From the NCBI GenBank assembly GCA_902567235.1, contig CACFLX010000005.1, positions 1 to 64,000 of the forward strand: a DNA stretch of 64,000 nucleotides, given 5' to 3'. Shown here one piece after another: positions 21,714-24,415 of this stretch. Origin of the DNA: an uncultured Pelagibacteraceae bacterium (GTDB taxonomy: Bacteria > Pseudomonadota > Alphaproteobacteria > Pelagibacterales > Pelagibacteraceae). The notes under the pieces were generated by a model. The model saw only the letters and a program-made list of their open reading frames with translations. It searched no databases and had not been told where the DNA came from. The translations under genes were made by a program, and so were the position numbers. Within the stretch, counting starts at the first letter, position 1. Every line of letters starts with the position of its first letter.

Positions 21714-22268
21714 ATGAATAAAGTAAAATTTACAGAAATGAAACATGGAACGAAAGAAGATTATTTACTTTTAGAAAAACATGAAAAAAAGTACGTAGAA
21801 GAAACCGCTGATAGAATTCTTAAATTTATGTCGGGATTAACAGAAACACTAGAGGGTTATCAAGTTTCAAGATTAGAACATTCGCTTCAAAGTGCAACAA
21901 AGGCGTTAAGAGCAGGAGAAGATGAAGAAATTGTAGTTGCAGCACTTTTACATGATATTGGAGATGAATTAGCTCCTATGAACCACTCAGAGTATGCTGC
22001 AGCAATTTTAAAACCCTATGTTTCAGAAAAAACTCATTGGATAGTTGAAAAACATGGAGAATTTCAATTATATTATTATGCACATCATTTAGGTGGGGAC
22101 AGAAACAAAAGAGAAAAATATAAAGAACATAAATACTACCAGGCAACAATCGATTTTTGTGAAAAGTATGATCAAGGATCTTTTGATCCTAGTTACAAGT
22201 CCTTACCATTGGAACATTTTGAACCAATGGTAAGAAGAATATTTTCAAGAAAGCCTTACTCTAATTAA
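21714..22268 (+). CDS. HD-domain protein resembling diiron oxygenases (PhnZ/TmpB-like)
   Basis: A 184-residue HD-superfamily protein. Candidate ligands are His56 (RLEHSLQSA), His80-Asp81 (ALLHDIGDE), His91 (MNHSEYAAAIL), His114 (VEKHGEFQ) and the Asp of EKYDQGSFDP. This order matches the H-HD-H-H-D pattern of HD-type mixed-valence diiron oxygenases such as PhnZ, TmpB and inositol oxygenase, although the loop between His80 and His91 is shorter than in PhnZ as I recall it. It starts 2 bases after purF and overlaps the convergent bhmT stop by 4 bases. A plain HD phosphohydrolase is the alternative. The neighbourhood of bhmT suggests a role around betaine or other methylated amines, which is inference. 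Confidence 0.6.
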   Translation: MNKVKFTEMKHGTKEDYLLLEKHEKKYVEETADRILKFMSGLTETLEGYQVSRLEHSLQSATKALRAGEDEEIVVAALLHDIGDELAPMNHSEYAAAILKPYVSEKTHWIVEKHGEFQLYYYAHHLGGDRNKREKYKEHKYYQATIDFCEKYDQGSFDPSYKSLPLEHFEPMVRRIFSRKPYSN

Positions 22269-23335
22269 GCTTTTTCTATATAATCTTTTTGATGTTGAGG
22301 AATTCGCTCATGAGTTCCAAACAACATATGAGTGGACATATCTTCCCTATATTTGCTAGCTGGCACTTTTAAACCAACCGACTCCGCAACTTCTCTAATC
22401 AACATCGGATTTGCTCCACAACAAACACCAAGATAATTTATACCAGCTTCATAAGCGTCCTTTGCAAATTGACCGATTTCATATCTATTACATTGCATCG
22501 GGTCTAATGCTGTAGGAAATGGAGTTTTGTGAGGTGTATGGCATGTGCATCCATTATTATCAGGTAAATTAAAAAAAGTAGGATGTTCTGCTGTTGTACG
22601 ATAATTAATCGGTAGAGCAGCAACATGGCATTTTAAAGCTTTTCTAACTTCCTTAATATAAGGCATCATTGTACCAGGACCTCTAAAACAATTCATTCCT
22701 ACTACATCTCCTCCAATTTGTTCAAGCTCTTTGCAAGTATCTACTATTGAAAAACCATCTCTCATAATGTTTTCACCCATAGGTGCAATTGTAATTACAC
22801 AAGGAAGTCCAGATTGTTTCATTACTTTCAATGCCGTGAAGGCTTCTTCGGCATAATAAAAAGTTTCACCAATCAATATATCTGCCCCTTCATCAACTGC
22901 CCAACCTATCATTTCTTCAAACATTCTTTTGACCTCTTTGTTTTGAGTGGTATCTTTGTTATTCCAAATATTTGAATTTGAAATATTCCCAGCCATTAAG
23001 TTTGGTTCGACACCTTTTGGTGTATCGAGTGCAACTTTCTTTGCTATTTTTAGTGCTGACCTGTTAAGAGGTTCTAATAGTTGTTCTTTACCAATAACTC
23101 GCATTTTTTCTCTATGCCCATTATAGGTAAAAGCTTGAACTATATCTGATCCCGCATGTTGAAAATCTTTATGCAAATTTTCTAATGCTTCTGGATGTTC
23201 CAAAGAAACCATTGGAACAAATTCACCAGACGACATGTACCCTCTTCTTTCAATTTCAAAAAGAAATCCTTCTGCACATATTACTGGACCTTGGTTTAAT
23301 CTTTCAATTAAACCTCTTTTTTTATCTTTACTCAT
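22265..23335 (-). CDS. bhmT: Betaine-homocysteine S-methyltransferase
   Basis: Transfers a methyl group from glycine betaine to homocysteine, giving methionine and dimethylglycine. The 356-residue TIM-barrel protein has the zinc-binding cysteines of the homocysteine methyltransferase family: Cys216 in GMNCFRGPG and the Cys305-Cys306 pair in LGVCCGANP. SAR11 bacteria are known to depend on reduced sulfur and to use betaine-based methionine synthesis. The leader carries SAM-II, a terminator and SAM-V in series, so expression falls when SAM is plentiful. The Shine-Dalgarno sequence GGAG sits at the 3' end of SAM-V, 6 bases before the ATG. Confidence 0.9.
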   Translation of the reverse strand: MSKDKKRGLIERLNQGPVICAEGFLFEIERRGYMSSGEFVPMVSLEHPEALENLHKDFQHAGSDIVQAFTYNGHREKMRVIGKEQLLEPLNRSALKIAKKVALDTPKGVEPNLMAGNISNSNIWNNKDTTQNKEVKRMFEEMIGWAVDEGADILIGETFYYAEEAFTALKVMKQSGLPCVITIAPMGENIMRDGFSIVDTCKELEQIGGDVVGMNCFRGPGTMMPYIKEVRKALKCHVAALPINYRTTAEHPTFFNLPDNNGCTCHTPHKTPFPTALDPMQCNRYEIGQFAKDAYEAGINYLGVCCGANPMLIREVAESVGLKVPASKYREDMSTHMLFGTHERIPQHQKDYIEKA

Positions 23336-23341
23336 TTACTT

Positions 23342-23398
23342 CTCCTTTTTAGTGCTTCGACATATGTCAGGTGCACAATTTGGTTAAATACCTAGGTT
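23342..23398 (-). ncRNA. SAM-V riboswitch overlapping the bhmT ribosome-binding site
   Basis: On the minus strand an H-type pseudoknot can be drawn: AGGT (23393-23390) pairs with ACCT (23372-23369), and GTGC (23376-23373) pairs with GCAC (23355-23352). A small GACATATGTC element lies between. The second 3' strand runs straight into CTAAAAAGGAG, so ligand binding would restrict access to the Shine-Dalgarno. The core ATTTAACC...TTGTGC...GCACTAAAA matches SAM-II/SAM-V-type aptamers, and SAM-V is established upstream of bhmT in Pelagibacter. Boundaries are approximate. Confidence 0.85.
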
Positions 23399-23413
23399 TT
23401 TTTTATTAAAGAT

Positions 23414-23441
23414 AAAAAAAAACCACCTGATAAATAGGTGG
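23414..23441 (-). terminator. Intrinsic terminator between SAM-II and SAM-V
   Basis: On the minus strand CCACCT (23441-23436) and AGGTGG (23428-23423) form a 6-bp G/C-rich stem with a 7-base loop, followed directly by nine T residues. It lies between the two aptamers. The 3' arm includes CAGGT, which can pair instead with ACCTG of the SAM-II pseudoknot strand, so the stem is conditional. Confidence 0.9.
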
Positions 23442-23458
23442 CTCACATGAAACATCTA

Positions 23459-23506
23459 TTTAGCAGGTTTTTTATAGCGCCCGCAATTCGACTTAAATCA
23501 GCGCTT
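23459..23506 (-). ncRNA. SAM-II riboswitch
   Basis: The minus strand reads AGCGCTGATTTAA, then TTGCGGGCGCT, then CCTGCTAAA, which is the SAM-II consensus layout. P1 pairs AGCGC (23505-23501) with GCGCT (23480-23476). The pseudoknot P2 pairs GCGGG (23484-23480) with CCTGC (23467-23463); the two share one base at the junction, so one terminal pair is optional. The terminator follows about 20 bases downstream, consistent with transcriptional control of bhmT. Confidence 0.88.
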
Positions 23507-23551
23507 GTAAATAACGTATCATAAGCTAATGATTTTTCAATATAAATTATT

Positions 23552-24415
23552 ATGTTTCAAAAATTATCAAATCAACAAAAAGGATCGCTTTTAGCATTTA
23601 TCGGGGTTTTTCTAATCACTCCTGACTCTTTGCTGATTAGATTATCAAACATAGAAACATGGGGAATGTTATTCTATAGAGGAGCAATACCTTTTGTGGT
23701 TGTTTTAATCGGTACGTTAATTTTTTATAATAAAAATTTTTTAAAAAAACTATTTGGAATAGGTTATGCAGGAATATTTTATATTTTTAGTTTTTCTGCA
23801 TGTAATATTACTTTTATATTATCTATCCAAAACACTAATGTTGCTAATACTTTAGTAATGATTGCTTTGGCTCCAATGCTTTCTGCTATACTAGGAGCTA
23901 TATTCTTAAAGGAAGCCCCAGATAAAAAAACTTGGATTGCAATACTTATTACCTTTGCTGCTTGCGTTTATATCTTTTATGATTCTCTAAATTTAGGTAA
24001 CTTTTTAGGTGATTTCTTTGGTCTAGTTACTGCCTTTGGTCTTGCTTGTAATGCTACCTTAGCAAGATATGCTAAAGACAGGGACCTTGTTCCATCAGCT
24101 GTAATTGGTAAATTATGTGTTGCAATATTTGCATTTTTCTTTGTAGAGAACTTCACACTGGCAGGTAATGATATCATTTACATACCTTTAATGTGTGTAA
24201 TGTGCGTGGCTATCCCTTTTGTTTTAGTAACTATAGCCCCAAGATTTATAACTGGTGCCGAAGTTAATCTTTTTTTCCTTCTTGAAACCATATTGGGTCC
24301 AGTGTGGGTTTGGATGGTAATTAAAGAACAACCTAGTTTGGAAACCATTTTAGGTGGCTCAGTTATCATATTAACAATTGCAATTCATTCATTCCTAGCC
24401 TTAAAAAAAACATAA
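23552..24415 (+). CDS. DMT-superfamily transporter (EamA type)
   Basis: A 287-residue inner-membrane protein with about ten hydrophobic segments in two EamA-like halves; the second half carries LLETILGPVWVWMVIKEQPS, the usual EamA end. Family members move small metabolites, often as exporters. It diverges from bhmT, and its 5' region is the 216-bp spacer that holds the bhmT riboswitches on the opposite strand. The substrate is unknown; proximity to bhmT hints at a methylated amine or amino acid, which is only context. Confidence 0.8.
   Translation: MFQKLSNQQKGSLLAFIGVFLITPDSLLIRLSNIETWGMLFYRGAIPFVVVLIGTLIFYNKNFLKKLFGIGYAGIFYIFSFSACNITFILSIQNTNVANTLVMIALAPMLSAILGAIFLKEAPDKKTWIAILITFAACVYIFYDSLNLGNFLGDFFGLVTAFGLACNATLARYAKDRDLVPSAVIGKLCVAIFAFFFVENFTLAGNDIIYIPLMCVMCVAIPFVLVTIAPRFITGAEVNLFFLLETILGPVWVWMVIKEQPSLETILGGSVIILTIAIHSFLALKKT

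Follow-up and report, generated by a model that had tools for sequence, protein, structure and literature searches.

A predicted antiterminator helix between SAM-II and its terminator in the tandem SAM-II/SAM-V leader of bhmT in a SAR11 bacterium

The leader of about 170 nt that precedes bhmT on the minus strand of the window (the whole 64,000-nt stretch of DNA analysed, from an uncultured Pelagibacteraceae bacterium) is probably a tandem SAM-II/SAM-V leader that acts at two levels, first on transcription and then on translation; we place the probability of this reading at roughly 0.78. From 23505 to 23339 the minus-strand order is SAM-II aptamer, intrinsic terminator, SAM-V aptamer and Shine-Dalgarno, followed by bhmT. 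The tandem architecture and the bhmT gene are already known from published SAR11 leaders, and the additions made here are a covarying antiterminator and, drawn from it, a reason that can be tested why SAM-II is inactive in full-length RNA. Direct support comes from the anatomy of the leader and from the antiterminator helix, which covaries and is predicted to be stable and to form early. The features are as follows (window coordinates).

22265-23335, minus strand: bhmT (betaine-homocysteine methyltransferase), the regulated gene, an open reading frame of 356 aa with its ATG at 23335
23453-23505, minus strand: SAM-II aptamer, with P1 at 23505-23501/23480-23476 and P2 at 23484-23481/23466-23463
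within 23453-23505, minus strand: SAM-site segments GAUUU, AAUUGC and GCUAAA of SAM-II, read from the sequence
23456-23467, minus strand: antiterminator 5' strand, CCUGCUAAAUAG, from the minimum-energy (MFE) structure and the comparison of leaders
23426-23437, minus strand: antiterminator 3' strand, CUAUUUAUCAGG, which spans the terminator loop and reaches into both arms (end of the 5', start of the 3')
23414-23444, minus strand: intrinsic terminator, GCCACCU (23442-23436)/AGGUGGU (23428-23422), with nine U at 23422-23414
23395-23424, minus strand: predicted linker hairpin, GGUUUUUUUU (23424-23415)/AAAAAAAACC (23404-23395), from folding of the growing leader
23339-23402, minus strand: SAM-V aptamer, with P1 at 23394-23390/23372-23368, P2 at 23376-23373/23355-23352 and CUAAAAAGGAG joined to the Shine-Dalgarno
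23342-23345, minus strand: Shine-Dalgarno GGAG, 6 nt upstream of the ATG, read from the sequence
23518-23546, minus strand: candidate promoter TTTATA-17-TATGAT, about 12 nt upstream of P1, whose 9/12 matches are within chance here

Some relatives carry TTGACA at the position equivalent to the candidate promoter. The putative identity of bhmT follows the literature on leaders of this type and not a family scan.

The elements named in a first-pass annotation of this DNA, among them a terminator with nine T and a SAM-V 3' strand joined to the Shine-Dalgarno, were all found where it had placed them. The covariance-model search that it had proposed as a check bore out SAM-V fully and SAM-II in part. 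SAM-V (RF01826; 23402-23339, minus strand) scored 56.5 bits against a gathering threshold of 41 and was the sole match in a gathering-level Rfam scan of the 64-kb window; the 3' strand of its pseudoknot runs into the Shine-Dalgarno (GCAC UAAAAA GGAG, ATG at 23335). SAM-II (RF00521, SAM_alpha; 23514-23439, minus strand) was missing from that scan and was detected only by a relaxed search, with its core kept, at 32.7 bits, under the gathering threshold of 36 (E = 5.9e-6 over the 261 nt searched). Because a homologous bhmT leader (L165) scores 34.4 bits with the same model, the sub-gathering value suggests that SAM_alpha fits SAR11 sequences poorly, not that the aptamer of the window is degenerate. 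The segments of the SAM-II H-type pseudoknot (GAUUU, AAUUGC and GCUAAA) are present in the comparison of 77 leaders, with P1 paired in 100% and P2 in 87.6% of cells of the alignment. On these conserved features and on homology to the SAM-binding aptamer of P. ubique, the element is called SAM-II-type. A candidate 3' extension of SAM-II by three pairs was paired in 90% of cells versus at most 54% in slid registers and was not clearly above shuffles. Other sub-threshold Rfam matches (PyrG leader, mir-374 and others) were set aside as chance or as re-detection of the hairpins. The terminator stem occupies 23444-23420 (minus strand), and the terminator scan returned one site versus 0.2 expected. 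The leader thus shows the arrangement of a bi-mechanism tandem (SAM-II, terminator, SAM-V at the ribosome-binding site), its SAM-II part being sub-gathering.

The predicted antiterminator pairs CCUGCUAAAUAG (23467-23456) with CUAUUUAUCAGG (23437-23426) in 11 of 12 columns, and it is this helix, not the terminator, that appears in the MFE fold of the leader without pseudoknots. Its score was equalled in only 75 of 5000 shuffles. The 5' strand consists of the P2 3' strand of SAM-II, the CUAAA that contacts SAM (by homology to the numbering of PMC11508383) and three extra nucleotides, while its partner begins with the final two bases of the terminator 5' arm, runs across the loop and ends three bases into the 3' arm. 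Bases 23466-23463 are held in common with SAM-II P2, and bases 23437-23436 and 23428-23426 with the terminator; since the helix uses these and CUAAA, it would exclude both the SAM-bound aptamer and the terminator. The conserved core lies between CUAAANNG (the SAM-contacting nucleotides plus three) and CNNUUUAG (the terminator loop and 5'-arm end). The first-pass annotation had read an antiterminator from the full complementarity of ACCTG (23468-23464) to CAGGT (23429-23425). The sequence agrees and the idea was right in kind, but the helix was under-read: the 5-mer is its less conserved, peripheral half, and a U-A pair within it forms in just 45 of 78 leaders. As sufficient evidence the 5-mer was dropped, since 17% of dinucleotide-shuffled terminator regions contain CAGGT (836 of 5000).

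Leaders for comparison were obtained from 80 related bhmT loci in SAR11-type genomes, from SAM-V loci and from G066, a genome whose coordinates agree with the published positions of P. ubique HTCC1062 (PMC2704228). Alignments were made first of 79 unique leaders and afterwards, by realignment, of 77, and per-pair counts refer to 78-79. Across the 77 leaders the antiterminator was paired in 89.5% of cells and the terminator in 93.7%; antiterminator covariation was 0.165, versus 0.069 in shuffled alignments and at most 0.029 in slid registers. Compensated changes are frequent at two antiterminator pairs (in 16 and 23 leaders) and number 2 at a third. Pair 23457/23436 is C-G in 53, A-U in 23 and wobble in 2 of 78 leaders and is broken in none, and pair 23458/23435 is G-C, U-A or A-U in 68/78. 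Base 23436 retains its terminator partner in only 59/79 leaders, so it appears to be constrained more by the antiterminator than by the terminator. This comparison of 77-79 bhmT leader sequences lifts the putative antiterminator beyond chance, and the helix has the marks of an attenuator, being exclusive with aptamer and terminator and carrying compensatory changes, for which tree-aware support is weak. In the tree-aware test, pair 23457/23436 ranked first of 5253 column pairs with E = 0.1 only, and the next-best antiterminator pair reached E = 6.4; the values are weak because a tree of the leaders themselves shows about one main C-G/A-U switch. When the bhmT protein tree is used instead, the C-G/A-U state changes several times, both sides together. 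These changes were not accepted as independent events, given about one large switch on the leader tree, and whole-leader recombination may be a simple alternative to repeated mutation.

One bhmT leader (L119/L168) represents a loss in nature: its SAM-II and antiterminator are degraded, whereas its SAM-V and the 3' arm of its terminator look intact. A leader in a sister family (L142), whose downstream gene is probably metX as judged from its protein sequence, has SAM-II at 37.8 bits, above the cut-off, and an antiterminator of the same plan in other letters (GCAGCUAA with UUAGUUGU), in which the P2/SAM-site strand pairs with the terminator loop as in the window; as L142 and similar metX loci share the plan, the antiterminator design is not unique to bhmT. 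In both L142 and the Sinorhizobium metZ leader (PMC9373788), SAM-II is likewise followed by an intrinsic terminator, but these are single-stage leaders, with no SAM-V, unlike the tandem of the window.

Folding was performed with ViennaRNA, in which pseudoknots and ligand are ignored. In the window the antiterminator fold was predicted at -24.2 kcal/mol and the terminator fold at -22.1 kcal/mol; the antiterminator was the lower-energy fold in 62/78 leaders and the terminator at least as stable in the other 16/78. When the growing RNA was folded, the antiterminator appeared from nt 78 (23433), ahead of synthesis of the terminator 3' arm, and terminator probability in the window never exceeded 0.03 without ligand. 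The predicted default state without ligand is therefore read-through, and a lower-energy, early-forming antiterminator fits kinetic control of SAM-II. A separate pairing of 10 bp, low in complexity and likewise predicted, joins the U tract to the A-rich stretch before SAM-V (23424-23395, minus strand). After read-through this linker hairpin could lock the antiterminator.

For this organism we infer that SAM is bound, that termination depends on SAM, that control is kinetic and that the Shine-Dalgarno is occluded, in the following sequence. SAM-II would be made first, and SAM bound before the terminator loop emerges would keep CCUGC and CUAAA within the P2 pseudoknot. The SAM-bound P2 would then block the antiterminator, the terminator would fold and RNA polymerase would halt at the U tract. 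At low SAM, CCUGCUAAAUAG would pair with CUAUUUAUCAGG upon emergence of the loop, the SAM-II site and the terminator would both be lost, and read-through would follow. In the read-through RNA the SAM-V pseudoknot would bind SAM and mask the Shine-Dalgarno, so that translation would still be under SAM control. With the antiterminator as default, SAM would have to hold CCUGC/CUAAA already when the loop emerges, which amounts to kinetic control.

A closely similar leader has been described. The bhmT leader of P. ubique (Poiata 2009, doi 10.1261/rna.1824209, as described in PMC5069961, PMC9481103 and PMC11508383) has the same gene, aptamer order and intervening terminator, its SAM-V is joined to the Shine-Dalgarno as in the window, and a homologous leader is present in our set (L135). 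According to PMC5069961 and PMC9481103, SAM-II terminates transcription and SAM-V blocks translation in this tandem. The first-pass assignment of transcriptional control to SAM-II and then translational control to SAM-V agrees with these accounts, with that of PMC11508383 and with the annotation given here; its remark that such tandems are described from marine metagenomes holds for the arrangement and is too narrow, as these sources place it also in cultured Ca. Pelagibacter ubique, at the same gene. PMC9481103 counts 149 SAM-II/SAM-V tandems, termed bi-mechanism, and states that SAM-II was always upstream of a terminator in the original 120. The KDs cited for P. ubique bhmT in PMC5069961 are 1.2 uM for SAM-II and 120 uM for SAM-V, and that of the bhmT SAM-V was measured at 0.5 uM in PMC6061858. 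The lineages differ in the type of antiterminator, which is of an A-U type in that of the window (CUAAAUAG/CUAUUUA) and of a G-C type in P. ubique (CUAAAGCG/CGCUUUAG). In the excerpted accounts of P. ubique bhmT a hairpin before the U tract is predicted and an antiterminator is not named, although Poiata 2009 may draw one.

PMC11508383 reports that truncated P. ubique SAM-II RNA binds SAM, that the full-length RNA gives no SAM response at SAM-II in vitro, for a reason left open, and that an oligo on U83 and downstream (U tract onward) rescues SAM-II binding in the full-length RNA. When the published numbering was mapped onto the P. ubique leader, contacts U46, A47 and A49 fell inside the antiterminator strand (41-52), which pairs with 66-78 in the linker at a folding probability near 1.0. 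With the SAM contacts in the predicted antiterminator, loss of SAM binding at SAM-II in full-length RNA would be explained. Folding with blocked segments did not reproduce the published oligo rescue, the antiterminator staying at 0.98; in these predictions the antiterminator alone leaves the effect of the U83 oligo without an explanation.

The same data can be turned against the two-level reading, by supposing that SAM-II no longer senses SAM, that a very stable antiterminator leaves the hairpin to attenuate partially and invariably, and that SAM-V is the sole regulator. The silence of SAM-II in full-length RNA in vitro, the sub-gathering SAM_alpha score and an antiterminator that is the minimum-energy fold at near full probability in both the window and P. 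ubique leaders would all suit this explanation. We nevertheless consider it unlikely: the SAM-site segments, P1 and the P2 core are retained in all or nearly all of the 77 leaders, a degree of conservation at odds with decay, the P. ubique aptamer binds SAM when truncated, at the KD cited above, and bhmT mRNA rises strongly under sulfur limitation (PMC5069961). Less probable again is a hairpin that responds to something other than SAM, whether a protein, another RNA or coupled translation, with SAM-II as no more than an upstream fold; extra in vivo ligands are speculated upon in PMC11508383 and a cofactor is compatible with the present results, but in every aligned leader the antiterminator strand is the P2/SAM-site strand of SAM-II itself. 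That the terminator serves the upstream gene and has nothing to do with the aptamers was rejected as scarcely credible: nine T after a hairpin are a general mark of terminators, but the gene across from the leader (23552-24415) is on the plus strand, divergent to bhmT, so that 23444-23414 is not its 3' terminator, and the hairpin accompanies SAM-II at a kept spacing in 79 leaders.

The two-level reading may be extended, tentatively and at a confidence just short of an even balance, to a strictly kinetic SAM-II sensor and, more widely, to tandems in most SAR11 SAM-V leaders, those of metY and mmuM through a compact SAM-II-like element. Under strictly kinetic sensing, SAM would be readable only once CUAAA has emerged and until the terminator loop does so, and read-through RNA could not bind SAM at SAM-II, its SAM-contacting nucleotides being taken by the antiterminator.

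The compact element, found outside the window, is a strongly conserved pseudoknot candidate that resembles SAM-II and SAM-V and lies about 20 nt upstream of SAM-V in SAR11 metY and mmuM leaders (consensus (G/A)CCGAUUUG(A/U)UCC.UAUUGC(G/A)GG(C/U) ... GCUAAA(N2)GGA). Examples are L136:153-221 (metY, HTCC1062-like), L137 (mmuM) and non-bhmT loci among L001-L054. P1 is paired in every one of 42 unique leaders, a G-C pair being replaced by A-U in mmuM, and UCC/GGA pairs in 41-42/42 as aligned, with apparent compensation, judged by eye, in L053 (ACC/GGU) and L030 (UCU/AGA). CCGA(U) of the element can alternatively pair with (A)UCGG directly before SAM-V P1 in 41-42/42 leaders (e.g. L001, L136), a possible link between the two domains. 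A pattern search returned the element 29 times in 25 of 117 genomes, all of the genus of the window, and a reversed control pattern 0 times; all 25 genomes have SAM-V, with comparable sites directly upstream of it. Rfam gave 16.3 bits in L136 and, in a further three leaders searched up to E = 0.5, no match to the element. The element is apparently an undescribed SAM-II-like element that forms a putative new tandem with SAM-V. As SAM-II in the original 120 tandems of PMC9481103 always precedes a terminator and the metY/mmuM leaders apparently do not, the latter were probably left out of its count. In P. ubique metY (PMC6061858) the aptamer class and the proposed translational mechanism of SAM-V are as in the window, but SAM-V is preceded by the compact element and not by SAM-II and a terminator. 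In the genome of the window (an assembly about 90% complete) the bhmT SAM-V was the only one found and no metY-type element was detected, with a single one-mismatch match to the element core at C20:2772-2783.

SAR11 are among the most abundant cells of the ocean, and several of their methionine-synthesis genes are RNA-controlled. If SAM-II is strictly kinetic, this would explain the 'linker-mediated inactivation' of full-length RNA described in PMC11508383, for which the antiterminator offers a concrete and mutable answer, one that names the base pairs involved, predicts a time window and supplies a compensatory pair.
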